DNA of 64,000 nucleotides from Chthonomonas calidirosea T49. Its GTDB lineage: Bacteria; Armatimonadota; Chthonomonadetes; Chthonomonadales; Chthonomonadaceae. The notes beneath the pieces were generated by a model. The model did no database searches. It saw only the letters and a list, made by a program, of their open reading frames with translations, and was not told the origin of the DNA. Shown piece by piece: positions 9,154-51,647 of this stretch (its first letter is position 1; each line of letters opens with the position of its first letter). The stretch spans positions 1,268,903 through 1,332,902 of the forward strand of contig NC_021487.1 of assembly GCF_000427095.1 (NCBI RefSeq), read 5' to 3'. A program made the position numbers and the translations under genes.

Positions 9154-9990
9154 ATGAAAGTCGCTCGGCTCTTTGGATGGTTCGGAGTGGTGTTAGGCTG
9201 TTTGGGCATGTCGGCAGCCGCTCAGGAACCGAATAACACATCGGCAAACCCCTACAGTGGGCTACGTCCCGAAGTTGCCACGCTGTTGCAGCAAGCCACC
9301 GCTGCCTACCAGCATATGAACTCCTACCGTCATACCGCGGAACTGATTCAACGGGATGCCCAAGGCCAAATCGTTGTAGACCGCGCCTATACGTTGGCCA
9401 TGGTCCGCCCCAACAAATACTGCTATCGCTCGGAAAGCAACTCCACGAATACCGTCGTCTCCGATGGGCAGTACATCGTAAACTATGATGGTAGTGATAA
9501 AACTTATACACGCCTTAGAGCGCCAGCCTCCCTCACTCAGATCGACTTCGTAAACGATGTCAACTTCGATGGCGTGGCCTCCTACCTCATTAGTCTCATG
9601 CTTCAAGGCAATCCGCTGGTTGATCCAGAGTTGCGTGCTGGATTTCAAGCCGCCTCGGCTCCCACCACTGTAACTGATAATGGCAAGACCTATCAGGTTC
9701 TCTCTATCAACCTGTCCGACCAAGATGTGCCCGTCTCGCTCTACTTTGACCCCACAACGCACCTTCTCCATAAATCGGTTCAAAAAGGGGCGGATAAAAG
9801 CGAACTAGCCGAGATCATCGAGAACGTGAAGATCGATCAACCCGTGCCCGCCGATCTTTTTCAGTTTGCCATTCCTGCGGGCGCCCACTGGATTACGCTA
9901 GCGCCCCAACGCAATTCACATCTCCTTGTTGCCCTCAGCGAGAAGGAGAAAAGGAGCACTCTGCAACAGCAGATCTTACGCTCTTTTTGA
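9154..9990 (+). CDS. exported LolA/DUF2092-like protein
   Basis: 278 aa from ATG 9154 (signal peptide MKVARLFGWFGVVLGCLGM, cleavage near AAA-QEP; GTGAGG lies 9 bp upstream). The mature protein follows the LolA/DUF2092 plan: a first helix (VATLLQQATAAYQHM), then strands alternating with phrases such as RPNKYCYRSES, VVSDGQYIVNYDG and YFDPTTHLLHKS. Members of this fold bind lipids or lipoproteins in the periplasm. It is 12 bp upstream of a paralog that carries the same domain plus a thioredoxin domain, so the two likely act together. Specific ligand unknown. Confidence 0.75.
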   Translation: MKVARLFGWFGVVLGCLGMSAAAQEPNNTSANPYSGLRPEVATLLQQATAAYQHMNSYRHTAELIQRDAQGQIVVDRAYTLAMVRPNKYCYRSESNSTNTVVSDGQYIVNYDGSDKTYTRLRAPASLTQIDFVNDVNFDGVASYLISLMLQGNPLVDPELRAGFQAASAPTTVTDNGKTYQVLSINLSDQDVPVSLYFDPTTHLLHKSVQKGADKSELAEIIENVKIDQPVPADLFQFAIPAGAHWITLAPQRNSHLLVALSEKEKRSTLQQQILRSF

Positions 9991-10002
9991 AAGGAGACCC
10001 TT

Positions 10003-11199
10003 ATGAAAACTTACCATCGCCTCTTCGTCGGCCTCATTGGCGCTCTCTGCAGCCTTGCTCCCCTACGCGCAGCCAAGGCCGATAGCGCCCTTCAAAATGT
10101 AAGGCCCGATGTGGCCGCTGTGCTGAAAGCGGCCACATCGGCTTACGACAAGCTCCAGGCTTATGAACACACCGAAACCTGGACTCTCCACTCCGGAGAC
10201 CAGAAAACGACCTCCGCAGTTACCAAACTCGCCTTTAAACGCCCCAATCGCTTCTATATACAAACCTCTTCTGACGGCGATCTCCTCGTCTCAGATGGAC
10301 AGAATCTCTATATCTATCGGAAGGCCGTTCAGGAGTACACCAAAGACGCTGCCCCCATCTCCCTAGCCAAATCTGACGATCTGCTCGGTGCCCTGCCTGG
10401 CAACCGTTTTGTAAGCGTGCTTGTGGTGCTTATCGTGCAGCATAACCTCGATAAAGCCTCCAGCTTTCTCTCTTTGGCAACGCTGGCCCCACCGACGAGC
10501 TACCACGGACAGCGCTGCGACGATGTGGTCGTCAAAGCGGGGAACACGGCCATTCATCTCTACTTCAATAAACAGACGCATCTCTTAGCCGGTGCCTACT
10601 TAAAACACGACACCGAATCGGTTACGGAAGAGCTGAGCGATGTTCATACAAACGGTGCCGTTCCCAACGATCTCTTCACCTTTACCCCACCAAGTGACGC
10701 AAAGCTGGTTGCCGACCTCGATGATCCTGAAGAGCTGGCGCTACAGCAAAAGTACGTGGGAAAACCGGCCGTGGACTTTAGCCTTCAAGACACAAAAGGC
10801 AAAACATGGGACATCGCCGAGCTCAAAGGCAAGGTGGTGATTGTGGATTTTTGGGCGAGTTGGTGTGGGCCATGCCAGATGGTGATGCCCACCATTGAGA
10901 AAATTTATGAGAAGTACTCCGATAAGGATGTTGTGGTGCTGGCCGTTAATACATGGGATGATCCCGACGCCTGCGCCTCCTTTTTAAAGAAGCACCCCGA
11001 ATACAAGATGAACGTGCTGCTGGACCCGGCAGGAAAAAATGCCGCTGATTCCGTGGCCACAAAGCTCTATGGTGTGCAAGGCATTCCGACCACCCTCTTT
11101 ATTGACAAAGAGGGAATCGTGCGTACCTACGCCATTGGCGCCCATCCACCGGAGTTTTATATGGATCAACTCAAAAAACTCGGTATCGCAACCGACTAG
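10003..11199 (+). CDS. exported DUF2092/LolA-like domain fused to a TlpA-type thioredoxin
   Basis: 398 aa with a signal peptide (about 1-26, ending LRAAKA-DS) and start behind AAAGGAGA. Residues ~30-230 repeat the LolA/DUF2092 plan of the preceding gene (RPNRFYIQ, LVSDGQNLYIY, YFNKQTHLLAG). Residues ~255-398 are a TlpA/ResA-like thioredoxin: GKPAVDFSLQD, then the redox motif WCGPC within VDFWASWCGPCQMVMP, and the cis-Pro loop GIPTTLFIDKEG. It should act in the periplasm as a thiol-disulfide reductant or oxidant. The fusion suggests that a lipid- or lipoprotein-binding function is tied to disulfide chemistry, perhaps reduction of a partner. Which partner is unknown; no cytochrome-maturation genes are nearby. 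Confidence 0.88.
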   Translation: MKTYHRLFVGLIGALCSLAPLRAAKADSALQNVRPDVAAVLKAATSAYDKLQAYEHTETWTLHSGDQKTTSAVTKLAFKRPNRFYIQTSSDGDLLVSDGQNLYIYRKAVQEYTKDAAPISLAKSDDLLGALPGNRFVSVLVVLIVQHNLDKASSFLSLATLAPPTSYHGQRCDDVVVKAGNTAIHLYFNKQTHLLAGAYLKHDTESVTEELSDVHTNGAVPNDLFTFTPPSDAKLVADLDDPEELALQQKYVGKPAVDFSLQDTKGKTWDIAELKGKVVIVDFWASWCGPCQMVMPTIEKIYEKYSDKDVVVLAVNTWDDPDACASFLKKHPEYKMNVLLDPAGKNAADSVATKLYGVQGIPTTLFIDKEGIVRTYAIGAHPPEFYMDQLKKLGIATD

Positions 11200-39408: not shown

Positions 39409-41415
39409 CTACTTCTCTTCTAGGGGGCGATTCGTGCCTGGGATTAGCTGTGCCATTGCATACGAGCGCCTTACCAGCAAAATACGCGCTTTTGCTCGCT
39501 GCCCAATGAACCGATACCCATCGTCGAGGTCGAGCATTTGGCCATCGGCCCAGCCAATGCAGTGATTGCCCTCCTTCAGCAAAGAGCGACGAATGCGGCA
39601 TTCTACCACCTGCGCTCGCTTAATTCCGATGCGGCTCTTCTCAAAAGAGGCGATCTCGCCGGCTTCAATAAGATATTTCTCGATCACTGCCTCCTCTGAA
39701 GCCCGGATGTAAAGCGCTTTCTCCAGCTCTCGCTCCATCTCCTCCACCGTCGCTCCGTCTGGCCCGATCAGAAACTCGGCCACGTCGGGATGGCAGGTAA
39801 TACGAAAAGCCTCTTTCTTTGCATACTTCGGATCGGCCACCATGCGCCGAAGATCTCGTTCCACCTCCAACGAGACGCTCTCTGCCGAGGGCAGATGGCC
39901 GCGCCCCTTACAAAGGGGGCACTCTTCGCTTAGAAAGTTCAGCAGGTTATCCGCCGTGCGTTTACGGGTCATCTCCACCAATCCTAAACGGCTCATAGGG
40001 GAGACTTTCGTACGAGAGCGATCCTTCTTTAGCGCAGCCTCCAACGCTTTCACCACCGCAGTCCTATCACGCGGGTTGCTCATATCAATAAAATCTATGA
40101 CGATGATTCCCCCGATGTCACGGAGACGCAGCTGCCGCGCTATCTCCTCAGCAGCCTCTAGGTTGGTTTTAAATATCGTTTCGGCAAGGCTACTTCCCCC
40201 TACGTTTTTACTCGTGTTTACGTCAATAACGGTGAGCGCCTCCGTCTCATCAATCACTAAGGAGCCACCGGATTTAAGGTAGACCTTGCGCCTCAGGTTT
40301 TTCTCGATCTGCTCCTCAATTTTGTAGTAATCGAAGATAGGCTGTACCCCATCGTAAAGCTGTACACGCCCGATGAGCTTTGGCGAGATGCGCTCCAACA
40401 GCGCATTGGCCTTCTCGTACTCCGCTGGGTCATCTATCACCAAGCGCTGCACATCGGAGCTAAAAATGTCGCGAATGGTTTTATAGAGGAGGGTGAGGTC
40501 TTGCATCACCAAGGCAGGTGCCTCCACCTCTTGAGCACGCTGCTGTATCTGCTGCCAACTTTGCAACAAAAACTGTAGGTCGGCTTCGAGTTCGGCTTCC
40601 GTTTTATCCTCTGCTTCCGTGCGCACGATCAAACCAAAACCAGGACGGCGTAGCCTCTCTCCAATACGCTTTAGCCGTTCTCGCTCTTTAGGGTCTTCGA
40701 TCTTACGAGACACACCCAGCAATTCGGCACCGGGCATCAGCACCACATAGCGCCCCGGCAGGGTAATGCGGGTGGAGACACGAGCGCCTTTTGTGCTGCG
40801 CGGCCCCTTGATCACCTGCACCAAAAGCTCTTGCCCCACCTTAAGCACATCGCTGATGCTCTGCCGTCGCAAAACCGAGCGCCGAAACTGGCGACGCGGT
40901 CGCCACCGCACGCGAGGGGTCGCTTCTGGCTCCTCATCGGCTGCCTCCTCTGCGGCCTCAGCGGTCTCTAGCGCCTCCTGGATGATCTCCTCTGTGGCGC
41001 TCTGCGCTCTCTCTGCCTCTTCGTCCTCCTCCAAAGCCTCCGCCTCTATGTCTACGTCTAGAGCGTCCGCATCACCGTTTTCGACCTCGGCAAGCCCCAT
41101 AGGCAGCATGGCCCCTGGCAAATCAGAGGAAGACTCAGCAGCCACCTGCGTATTCTCCCCGGAGAGCGCCCCAGCCTCCTGCCCCATAACGCGATTCGGC
41201 AGCACATCGCCCACGTAGAGAAAGGCGTTGCGTTCTAGCCCAATATCTACGAAGGCGGCATCCATGCCAGGCAAAACGTTCATCACACGGCACTTATAGA
41301 GGCTACCTACCAAACGCTCGGAGCGCTCTATCTGCAGTTCCATCAGTTTGCCATCTTCTACAACAGCAATGCGTGTTTCTCTTTCCCCCACATTTACGAT
41401 GATCTCTTTGACCAA
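39409..41415 (-). CDS. rng: ribonuclease E/G
   Basis: 668 aa, endoribonuclease that matures 16S and other RNAs. N-terminus is the RNase H-like/S1 region (KEIIVNVGERETRIAVV; GMDAAFVDIGLERNAFLYVG). The S1 domain is interrupted by an acidic/basic insertion of about 100 residues (EDEEAERAQSATEEIIQEAL then RRQFRRSV). The catalytic region shows LTVIDVNTSK, IIVIDFIDM with metal-binding Asp residues, and the zinc-link ECPLCKGRG (CPxCxGRG). The tail is short, as in RNase G, so a degradosome scaffold arm is absent. Start is TTG 41415 behind AAAGGAG. Confidence 0.97.
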   Translation of the reverse strand: MVKEIIVNVGERETRIAVVEDGKLMELQIERSERLVGSLYKCRVMNVLPGMDAAFVDIGLERNAFLYVGDVLPNRVMGQEAGALSGENTQVAAESSSDLPGAMLPMGLAEVENGDADALDVDIEAEALEEDEEAERAQSATEEIIQEALETAEAAEEAADEEPEATPRVRWRPRRQFRRSVLRRQSISDVLKVGQELLVQVIKGPRSTKGARVSTRITLPGRYVVLMPGAELLGVSRKIEDPKERERLKRIGERLRRPGFGLIVRTEAEDKTEAELEADLQFLLQSWQQIQQRAQEVEAPALVMQDLTLLYKTIRDIFSSDVQRLVIDDPAEYEKANALLERISPKLIGRVQLYDGVQPIFDYYKIEEQIEKNLRRKVYLKSGGSLVIDETEALTVIDVNTSKNVGGSSLAETIFKTNLEAAEEIARQLRLRDIGGIIVIDFIDMSNPRDRTAVVKALEAALKKDRSRTKVSPMSRLGLVEMTRKRTADNLLNFLSEECPLCKGRGHLPSAESVSLEVERDLRRMVADPKYAKKEAFRITCHPDVAEFLIGPDGATVEEMERELEKALYIRASEEAVIEKYLIEAGEIASFEKSRIGIKRAQVVECRIRRSLLKEGNHCIGWADGQMLDLDDGYRFIGQRAKARILLVRRSYAMAQLIPGTNRPLEEK

Positions 41416-41673
41416 TCGTCAACTCCTTTCTCCGGCAAAAACACCTGAAATCCTACTACGATTCTAGCATACAAACTTCTATCCCACCCTCCTAGGGGAT
41501 CGATCAAAATAAGGTCGGCTCCTGCTATTTGCGAGTGTCGCGCATCCATTTGGCTCACATCAAGCAATATGCCGTCGGATATGCAAAGTGCCTGCAACCA
41601 TAACACTGCGATACTCGATGTGCAACGTGAAATCGCGCAAGTGATTGTTTAATGAGGGAGACTTGGAATAAAC

Positions 41674-41691
41674 CTGCTGTTCTCTCAGCAG
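41674..41691 (+). repeat. small perfect hairpin upstream of the intron
   Basis: CTGCTG-TTCTCT-CAGCAG forms a 6-bp stem with a 6-nt loop just upstream of the likely 5' end of the group II intron. Some group II introns insert next to stem-loops, so it may be part of the target; this is only a possibility. Confidence 0.35.
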
Positions 41692-41699
41692 TAGCCTAG

Positions 41700-42472
41700 G
41701 GGAGCGGCCATAATTGGCAACGATAATGTTTAAAACCTTTCTAACAATTTAGCCCATTCCGAAAGGTGAAGCAAAACCCGTGAGGGGAAAAGCGAATCCA
41801 GAAATAGCCGACACCGAACCTTCCATTGTCCCTCATGTGGAACACAGTAAGCCCGTACTCCCGCCCAAAAGGACAGGACGACCGCAAGGAAGGCAGTTGG
41901 GCATGCGGGTATGGGATACCGGAAAAAGCAAATGCCATTCCGTAATGGGACGGATAGGGAGGGATCGAGGAGGTAACCCGACATCATCCCGCCCTAAAGG
42001 GAGCAAACTTCCAGTTGGTCTCTCTTTGCACGAGAGTTTGTGGAACCTTTTGGACGGGGGACACGCAAATGACGACCATGCAAGGTTGGTGCGGCCTCTG
42101 ACCAGACGGTGGATTAGAACGGCACCGCTCGGTCGAAGCGCACCGAACGGTAAGAGGGCTGCAAACGCGCCTTGCAGAGGCCATGCAGCAAGGGCACTGG
42201 GGAAGGTGAAGAAATTTTGCGATGGCTGCTAACCTATGCGTTCAGCGGTAAAGTGCTTGCCGTTAGATGAGCTACTGCAAACCAAAATGAAAAAACCGGG
42301 CGTAGATGGGGAAACATCTGAGACACTTCGGATGCCAAAGCCAAAGTGGTGCGAAATAGCATGCCGGCTCCCGTCCCAGGAGGCTTTGCAGAGACTTAAG
42401 CCGTATGCGGAGAAATCTGCACGTACGGTTCTTAAGGAAGGATGGCGTAGCAGTGTACCGTCCTTACCCAAT
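41700..42472 (+). mobile_element. group II intron with deleted reverse-transcriptase gene
   Basis: The 3' end is clear. Domain V (42399-42430) pairs AGCCGTA with TACGGTT and TGCGGA with TCTGCA, has a 2-nt CG bulge and a GAAA tetraloop: catalytic AGC triad intact. Domain VI (42436-42468) pairs AAGGATGG with CCGTCCTT plus GG/CC, with a bulged branch-point A at 42466; the intron would end ...CCCAAT at 42472. Upstream, CGAAAGGTGAAGC and CCCGTGAGGGG resemble group II domain I sequences. At 42236-42340 the start of the intron protein survives (MRSAVKCLPLDELL, then KKPGVDGET like the RT N-terminus PGVDG), but the rest is deleted. The 5' boundary is an estimate; no clear GTGYG was found. Confidence 0.78.
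42236..42340 (+). pseudogene. remnant N-terminus of a group II intron reverse transcriptase
   Basis: About 35 codons: AVKCLPLDELLQTKMKKPGV then DGETSETL. The PGVDG wording is typical of the RT0 region of group II intron proteins. RT, maturase and endonuclease domains are gone; within 60 codons the sequence passes into domain IV/V RNA. The intron could move only with protein supplied from elsewhere. Confidence 0.6.
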
Positions 42473-42526: not shown

Positions 42527-42555
42527 TTGACAACGTAGAAACGGTATGTTATAAT
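42527..42555 (+). promoter_or_regulatory. perfect sigma-70 promoter of the structured RNA
   Basis: TTGACA (42527-42532), exactly 17 bp, TATAAT (42550-42555). The expected start is about 42561-42562, at or next to the first base of the 9-bp closing helix of the RNA that follows. This is one of the strongest-looking promoters in the window. Confidence 0.88.
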
Positions 42556-42649
42556 GTAAGTGTGAACAAGAGAGCAAGCCCGAAATGGGCACAAAGCTTC
42601 AAGCTTTGGAAACTCTGTTCACACAATACTCCGAAAGGAGGGAGCGACG

Positions 42650-42745
42650 ATGCGCGCTTCAAAAAGTCGTGGAACGCGGAGCTGTACTCGTCTGGACGAA
42701 GAGGGCTTAACACCACCGGACAGTTTTGCCGGGGCACGGTGCTGA
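42650..42745 (+). CDS. possible 31-aa basic peptide inside the structured RNA
   Basis: ATG at 42650 has AGGAGG 8 bp upstream, ideal spacing, and opens a 31-codon frame (MRASKSRGTRSCTRLDEEGL and 11 more, ending GARC). The same AGGAGG lies in the 3' arm of a GAAA-capped hairpin (42629-42640), so folding would hide it. Whether it is translated is unknown; it may be chance within a structured RNA, or a regulated leader peptide. Confidence 0.35.
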   Translation: MRASKSRGTRSCTRLDEEGLTPPDSFAGARC

Positions 42746-42882
42746 GGCCCGACCCGTCCTAGATGTCGCCGGTAAAGGTTCCCTAGAGAACCATATCTTA
42801 CGGCGAAACGTGCTACGCGACGGCAACGCGCACGGGAAAGTCGGTCCCCTCTAGCAGTTAAATGCCCCATCATCCAAATTTC

Positions 42883-42914
42883 AAAAACCCTGCAGCAACC
42901 ACTGCAGGGTTTTT
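42883..42914 (+). terminator. intrinsic terminator of the structured RNA
   Basis: A 9-bp GC-rich stem ACCCTGCAG/CTGCAGGGT (42887-42895 with 42902-42910), extended by A-T pairs, 6-nt loop, followed by a T-run. Symmetric enough to work in both directions. Confidence 0.9.
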
Positions 42915-42992
42915 GCTTTCATCCTGAAACCTCACCGCCTCTGGCTCCGTAGTTGTGTTAGATTGCCGCTTGCTTGAAGGAAAAGAATACCG

Positions 42993-43316
42993 ATGAGCCG
43001 ATGGAACGTGGGTGTATTTGGAATGCGAATGCTCTCCCGCCCTCTACGACGATGGTTGAATGTACCGCAAGGACTGTCGTTGATGCGATCCAAACAGATA
43101 CCCTGGCGCTATAAGCTGCTCGCCCTAGGACTAGGCGCTCTGATAACCGCTCTGCTCATGGCGCTGGAACTGCCGGTGGAATCGCTGTTAGCTACCCTGC
43201 TTATAGGACTGCCTATAGATATCTCTGTGGACGGCCTTGAGGCCATCCTAGGCCCTATTGTATTCGGATCAGCGCTCCTACCCCTCGTACTTCCCCGACA
43301 GCAGTTGCAGGAGTAG
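42993..43316 (+). CDS. small membrane protein of unknown function
   Basis: 107 aa from ATG 42993 with AAGGAAAAG about 8 bp upstream. A basic N-terminus (RPLRRWLNVP; RSKQIPWRYK) precedes two hydrophobic helices (LLALGLGALITALLMALEL and LLATLLIGLPIDIS, ~45-80). Later starts at residues 11, 13 or 31 are possible. The phrase IPIDISVDGLEAILGPIVFG-like region (seen as IDISVDGLEAILGPIVFG) resembles DUF1232/YkvA-type membrane segments in which a hydrophobic domain follows an amphipathic one, but I cannot confirm this. It comes right after the structured RNA terminator and is read separately. Confidence 0.6.
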   Translation: MSRWNVGVFGMRMLSRPLRRWLNVPQGLSLMRSKQIPWRYKLLALGLGALITALLMALELPVESLLATLLIGLPIDISVDGLEAILGPIVFGSALLPLVLPRQQLQE

Positions 43317-50121: not shown

Positions 50122-51647
50122 ACACGCTCCATAAAGCACAAAAAACCCTCATCCTTTACGTAATCGTTGGTCTGATAGGGCCGCTCCTCACCGGATGCTC
50201 GCATTCAAAGCCGACTGCTACACCGGCCACTCCCATGTCCGATACGAAAGCTGCCGTGCTCGTGCAGGTAACGCCCGCCCGCGTCGGTCCCATCGAACAG
50301 ACAACCATCGTTACCGGAGTTCTCACAGCCCTTAACGACGTCACCGTGGGCGCTAAGGCCGCCGGTAAACTTGTGGCCCTCTACTACCGCGAAGGAGATA
50401 GTGTAAAAGCGGGCCAGGTGGTAGCTCAGCAGGATACTAGCGATCTACAGGCGCAACTCGACCAGCAGCTGGCCAATCTCCAAGCGGCCATCGCCCGACT
50501 CGACCAGGCTAAAGTGGAATATCACAGCGCGCTTACCAACCTGCAGCTTACTCAATCGCAAACGCAGCATGCCATTGCCCAAGCGCAAGCCGCCCTGAAC
50601 GCTGCCAAAGAGCAGGCCAAAATCGTGGAGGAAGGAGCACGCTCCGAAGACCGCGAGCAAGCCCGTCAAAAGATGTTAGCGGCAAAAGCCGCCTACGACC
50701 AAGCTCGTTCTGATCTACAGCGCTACGAAAGCCTCTACCGTCAAAACGCTATCTCGGCTCAGCAGCTCGATCAGGCTCAAACGGCCGCCGACCAGGCGCA
50801 GGCCAACTATATCGCCGCCCAGCAGGCCTACGACGAAATTCAGGCGGGCAATCGCCCCGAAGAGATCAAAAGCGCCCAGTACAACGTGGAGCAGGCCGAG
50901 CAAGCCCTCCAAACCGCATTGGCCAACCGTGATCAGATTAAGTTGCGCCAAGAGGATGTAAAAAACGCACAAGCCGCCATTCAGACGGCACAGGCGCAGG
51001 TGGACCAAGCCAAAGCTGCGGTTGCCTACGCTCGACAACAGCTTGAAGATACCACCATCACCAGCCCTATCTCCGGTGTGGTTGCAGCGCGCCTTGCAGA
51101 GCCAGGAGAACAGCTCGCAGCTGGAAAATCCGTGCTTGAAATCGTCTCTTTGGAAAACATCTACTTCGATGCCCAGCTGCCCGAATCTCAGTTTGAAAAG
51201 GTGCACATCGGCCAACCTGTAACCGTCACAGTGGATGCTTTGCCAGGCAAAACGTTTCAAGGGCGGGTTAGTAAACTCTTTCCGGTGGCCTCCGCACAGG
51301 CCAGAAGCTTCACCGTGCGTATCTCGTTGCCCAACGACAGCCATCAACTACGCCCTCAGATGTTTGCAAGAGGCACCATTGTGCTCGACGTGCATCCTCA
51401 CGCAGTGCTTGTGCCTTATCTCTCCGTTCTCAATCCAGCCGACGGCATGGGCACGGTGTTTGTTGTGGAAAACAACGTTGCACACCAACGCAAAGTACAG
51501 CTCGGTTTCGTCACTCCAGACAAGATAGAGATTCGCAGTGGCGTTTCTGCCGGCGAGGCGGTGGTAACCCAAGGTCAGACGCAGTTGCAAGACGGTATGA
51601 AAGTACAGATCGAATCTCCAAACACATCCTCCTCGAATCCGGAATGA
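50118..51647 (+). CDS. HlyD/RND-type membrane-fusion lipoprotein
   Basis: 509 aa lipoprotein with lipobox LLTGC. Barrel and lipoyl half-domain (VTVGAKAAGKLVALYYREGD), then about 250 residues of coiled coil with the repeating pattern AAKAAYDQARSDLQRY and QANYIAAQQAYDEI, longer than in AcrA or MacA, then the second lipoyl half (DTTITSPISGVVAARLAEPG) and barrel. Bridges an inner-membrane pump to TolC. No RND, ABC or MFS pump gene is present nearby, so the pump is encoded elsewhere. A terminator follows. Confidence 0.94.
   Translation: MNTLHKAQKTLILYVIVGLIGPLLTGCSHSKPTATPATPMSDTKAAVLVQVTPARVGPIEQTTIVTGVLTALNDVTVGAKAAGKLVALYYREGDSVKAGQVVAQQDTSDLQAQLDQQLANLQAAIARLDQAKVEYHSALTNLQLTQSQTQHAIAQAQAALNAAKEQAKIVEEGARSEDREQARQKMLAAKAAYDQARSDLQRYESLYRQNAISAQQLDQAQTAADQAQANYIAAQQAYDEIQAGNRPEEIKSAQYNVEQAEQALQTALANRDQIKLRQEDVKNAQAAIQTAQAQVDQAKAAVAYARQQLEDTTITSPISGVVAARLAEPGEQLAAGKSVLEIVSLENIYFDAQLPESQFEKVHIGQPVTVTVDALPGKTFQGRVSKLFPVASAQARSFTVRISLPNDSHQLRPQMFARGTIVLDVHPHAVLVPYLSVLNPADGMGTVFVVENNVAHQRKVQLGFVTPDKIEIRSGVSAGEAVVTQGQTQLQDGMKVQIESPNTSSSNPE

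Follow-up and report, generated by a model that had tools for sequence, protein, structure and literature searches.

The window analysed here (the whole 64-kb stretch G000:C1:1268903-1332902 of the single-contig, 3.44-Mb genome of Chthonomonas calidirosea) harbours on its plus strand a compact unit composed of a perfect sigma-A promoter (42527-42555), a 5′ three-way junction (42560-42624) and an intrinsic terminator (42882-42915), for which no relatives are detectable. We give about an even chance to the reading that this unit specifies an orphan, independently transcribed RNA of ~355 nt, acting in trans as a small RNA with a paired, protected 5′ end and a C-rich antisense linker. The candidate is probably a lineage-specific small RNA and not a new widespread class; as far as searchable, the unit appears to be confined to the species.

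Promoter and terminator

The unit is flanked by a minus-strand gene upstream (start at 41415), which we take from its sequence to be rne, and by a plus-strand gene at 42993 encoding a protein of 107 aa. The promoter matches TTGACA-17-TATAAT at 12 of 12 positions and is of the extended -10 type (TG before the -10 hexamer). Judged from its position, the transcript would presumably start near 42560-42563. The terminator consists of a perfect 14-bp stem (42882-42895/42902-42915), a 6-nt loop and a U run; it was recognised as an inverted repeat as well as by folding, the pairing probability of the stem being 0.98-0.99. A consensus terminator scan does not list 42882-42915, presumably owing to the position of the U run within the stem. 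As no plus-strand gene is seen on the stretch from the promoter side to this terminator, it would most simply end a transcript from the promoter at 42527-42555. Thus, both the perfect promoter and the clear terminator described in an earlier note on this DNA are confirmed, and the sequence supports its view of an independent unit bounded by them. With a promoter and a terminator of its own, the unit has by sequence the boundaries expected of an independent small RNA gene. It is a real-looking transcription unit of ordinary kind.

Perfect copies of the promoter pattern occur 17 times in the genome versus none of a reversed control pattern, demonstrating that the organism clearly uses the TTGACA-17-TATAAT consensus. 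Nearly all of the other copies precede protein genes, mostly of likely transcription regulators (GntR/LacI/ArsR-type, for example) and prepilin-like proteins as judged from the N-terminal sequences. The perfect promoter, taken by the earlier note as a sign of a non-coding RNA, is therefore not diagnostic of one and signals strong transcription instead. About half of the 17 promoters (loci L047-L063) carry an extended TGTTATAAT -10 element, and at two of them (L053 and L055) leaders of more than 250 nt stand ahead of the first long ORF.

Predicted fold of the 5′ domain and the body

According to the folding models, the 5′ three-way junction is the one notable feature of the unit. It is formed by a stem (42560-42568/42616-42624, continued by 42570-42572/42613-42615) and two hairpins (42578-42590 and 42592-42608). 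The predicted energy is -28.0 kcal/mol, whereas shuffled sequences average -13.4 kcal/mol (z of -5.4 and -5.65) and none of 150 is as stable, in agreement with the junction drawn in the earlier note. Since C. calidirosea is a thermophile, folding was also calculated at 68 °C, and the junction is still folded at this temperature (helix probabilities of 0.64-0.98, compared to 0.94-1.0 at 37 °C).

The remaining body is weakly supported. Its favoured fold (42637-42852) is a long-range rod, in which 42637-42656 pairs with 42827-42852, with two terminal arms. Taken alone, the body (42625-42852) is hardly more stable than its shuffled versions, 7 of 150 of which equal it (z -1.8), and related spans yield z-values of -1.3 to -1.7 at 68 °C. 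The earlier description of the RNA as highly folded thus applies to the first 65 nt only; stability above shuffles throughout, as expected for a structured RNA class, is displayed by the 5′ domain but not by the body. The helices drawn from the ranges proposed before are all legal and mutually compatible, but several of them are disfavoured and enforcing the complete set costs ~10 kcal/mol. Among these, the nested stem 42711-42741 holds (p 0.77-0.84); the GNRA hairpin 42629-42640 is not favoured (p 0.55 at 37 °C, falling to 0.10 at 68 °C). In case of the two-hairpin domain 42744-42851, the hairpin 42766-42806 is well predicted (p 0.92-0.99), but neither the closure (p 0.17-0.18) nor the second hairpin (42809-42834; p 0.06-0.08) is.

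The full unit without the terminator has a z-value of -3.65, compared to -5.35 for the RNase P RNA and -4.48 for the tmRNA of the same genome. Among the 17 stretches behind perfect promoters, the candidate is the most strongly folded one (z -4.1; the other 16 range from +0.7 to -2.64). Its overall z-value is notable, albeit not unique, since a few other 322-nt stretches also reach -3.5 to -5 in rough screens of the window. Such screens at 68 °C (12 shuffles each) gave z -5.1 for 9900-10221 (plus strand), -4.0 at 41900 (minus strand) and -3.8 at 51500 (plus strand).

Between body and terminator, the fold leaves a C-rich linker (42866-42881, plus strand) predicted to be unpaired, with unpaired probabilities of 0.77-0.98 for 42866-42876 at 37 °C; it may represent an antisense seed. 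An inverted repeat (42502-42517/42847-42862; 81 %) was dismissed as transposon ends, being imperfect and showing no target duplication, and the resemblance between 42724-42745 and the rne leader (41419-41440) is no greater than chance would produce.

Search for relatives and known RNA families

Comparison with Rfam, at the gathering score as well as up to E 10, revealed no credible match but only chance-level ones. The lowest E-value (0.0015-0.0026, minus strand) belongs to GHRLOS, an animal lncRNA model which was rejected at less than half its cut-off. BLAST searches of the own genome and 100 relatives yielded short chance matches and no homolog. Covariance models for the whole RNA (R1), the 5′ domain (R2) and the body (R3) were run against 291 Armatimonadota genomes, of which the own genome alone rose above chance; these models, each built from a single sequence, are weak, and the searches score only candidates passing a loose first look, such that distant structural homologs could be missed. 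The best non-self E-values (0.0095 to 0.3 per genome) correspond to chance level across 291 genomes, and five R2/R1 matches that were inspected lack the promoter and layout of the candidate. Phages and plasmids provided nothing convincing, and in pattern scans of GTDB contigs (among the matches listed) and viral contigs the matches stop at or near the pattern edges.

An RNA of unrecognised class, as proposed in the earlier note, agrees with the Rfam result, but a class requires members. Since none was found in the genomes and contigs searched, the homologs with compensating base changes asked for by that note are missing, and the claim of a new class is unsupported. A new structured class built around a 5′ three-way junction domain that binds, for instance, a protein or a ligand, with the candidate as its sole sampled member and its relatives residing in unsampled lineages or metagenomes, is considered improbable. 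The large structured bacterial non-coding RNAs OLE, GOLLD and ROOL (e.g., PMC12286853) form conserved families. The candidate resembles them as a stand-alone RNA, but is shorter, has no detectable relative and is over most of its body no stabler than shuffled sequences.

As previously noted, signatures of RNase P RNA and tmRNA are missing from the candidate. The RNase P RNA gene is located at G000:C1:613289-613644 (308.9 bits), a family to which the candidate has no match, and the tmRNA gene at G000:C1:2306922-2307273, with ARAGORN finding no tmRNA in the window. In view of the rod-like body model and of RF00013 detecting no 6S RNA elsewhere in the genome, strong divergence from a known large RNA family (6S, HEARO/omega RNA or other) could be considered. 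However, of 14 control genomes only 5 gave a match with RF00013, and the apparent absence of 6S therefore means little; a 6S RNA may be present but diverged. Moreover, no match to such a family, RF00013 included, was obtained at the candidate up to E 10, no nuclease gene is among the neighbours tested, and the 5′ junction and separate terminator are unlike 6S RNA. We regard this possibility as very remote.

Neighbouring group II intron and downstream gene

An ORF-less group II intron is located just upstream of the promoter (Rfam matches at 41673-41808 and 42396-42472) and occurs as a single copy in the genome; assuming a start near 41618, we estimate its length at ~850 nt. The matches end at 42472 and thus outside 42560-42914, placing the candidate beyond the intron. 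This neighbourhood, together with the near-chance fold of the body and the lack of a relative in anything searched, would also be consistent with decaying or spurious sequence, i.e., a promoter and a terminator brought about by chance, in DNA that drifts without selected function beside a decayed group II intron or other insertion. Such an origin appears unlikely to us, since a 12/12 promoter, a junction with a z-value of about -5.5 and a perfect terminator would hardly arise jointly and in this order by chance, and decay should have eroded all three.

The 107-aa gene (42993-43316, plus strand) starts 78 nt past the terminator. Its membrane-like product belongs to no Pfam or PHROGs family, and homologs of 35-51 % identity are encoded in 12 of 100 relatives, in surroundings other than those seen here. 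The shared strand, the start 78 nt past the terminator and the structured 5′ domain may point to regulation of this gene by a leader (attenuator or riboswitch) that uses the terminator as switch. However, the 5′ arm of the terminator has no strong alternative partner (best duplex -9.6 kcal/mol), rendering an attenuator for the gene at 42993 less likely. In addition, the 12 relatives have the gene but no match to the RNA models, and a riboswitch match in Rfam is lacking. Altogether, a leader function is rather doubtful.

Coding potential

A possible Shine-Dalgarno sequence, AGGAGG (42636-42641), is positioned 8 nt ahead of an ATG at 42650, which opens a plus-strand ORF of 31 codons with its stop ending at 42745. 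The 31-aa peptide suggested by the earlier note is therefore possible with respect to the well-spaced Shine-Dalgarno sequence, but receives no backing from codon usage: the codon score of the ORF (z -0.6) is not above shuffles, though the test is weak at 31 codons, compared to z +9.3 for RuvB and +3.1 for the downstream 107-aa gene. Codon scores of a 66-aa ORF (GTG at 42562) and two minus-strand ORFs are not clearly above shuffles either. The ORFs of the unit have no match in Pfam, and four frame segments none in NCBIfam or PHROGs.

The main rival to the small-RNA reading is a short mRNA, in which the 5′ junction would serve as stabilising leader, AGGAGG at 42636 and the ATG at 42650 would drive synthesis of the 31-aa peptide, and pairing of the Shine-Dalgarno sequence (with 42840-42852 or in the GNRA hairpin) would limit translation. 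Besides the full-consensus Shine-Dalgarno sequence ahead of 31 open codons, this is favoured by the protein genes following most other perfect promoters and by the favoured rod fold, in which the Shine-Dalgarno site is likewise predicted to be mostly paired. It is opposed by the codon score and the missing Pfam match given above, as well as by the lack of a relative that could show conservation of the frame. On balance, a short mRNA is conceivable but somewhat unlikely. In ompA-type 5′ stabiliser leaders, a stable stem including the mRNA 5′ end is followed by the Shine-Dalgarno sequence. The candidate shares this succession of 5′-end stem and Shine-Dalgarno site, but downstream of it has only the 31-codon ORF without a coding signature.

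Proposed function as a small RNA

The small-RNA reading is favoured by the promoter, the 5′ fold stable at 68 °C, the terminator, the open linker and the ORFs devoid of a codon signature; the top rank in folding among the 17 promoter stretches and the lack of an upstream plus-strand gene in need of the terminator also count for it. Counted against it are the missing homolog, the near-chance body, the well-spaced Shine-Dalgarno/ATG pair inside and the failure of the linker complement and of neighbouring gene starts to point to a target (see below). RNA polymerase with sigma-A would start near 42560 and produce the RNA constitutively. The first 65 nt would then form the stable three-way junction, with the 5′ end included in its closing stem and the remainder loosely folded, and transcription would stop unconditionally at the terminator (42882-42915). 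The paired 5′ end may protect the RNA against 5′-end-dependent decay, and the exposed C-rich stretch ahead of the terminator may pair with ribosome-binding sites of target mRNAs; a peptide would presumably not be formed.

Trans-acting bacterial small RNAs with C-rich seeds are those of the FsrA and RsaE/RoxS type. The candidate resembles them in having its own promoter and an open C-rich stretch ahead of an intrinsic terminator, and a weak Rfam match to FsrA covers 42833-42913. The score of 22.8 bits is, however, far below the cut-off of 80 bits, and the candidate was rejected as FsrA. It also differs from these small RNAs by its much greater length and by a large 5′ junction which they lack. 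As a further difference, no target emerged: the complement of the linker (14 nt, zero mismatch) matches its own site only, and pairing of the RNA with 13 neighbouring gene starts is nothing unusual.

As the candidate shows, calling a new RNA class takes more than a promoter, a terminator and foldable sequence. Should homologs with covariation appear, the 65-nt 5′ junction would be the domain worth pursuing. If transcribed, the unit would represent an RNA gene specific to its lineage within the Armatimonadota, a phylum that has been little studied.
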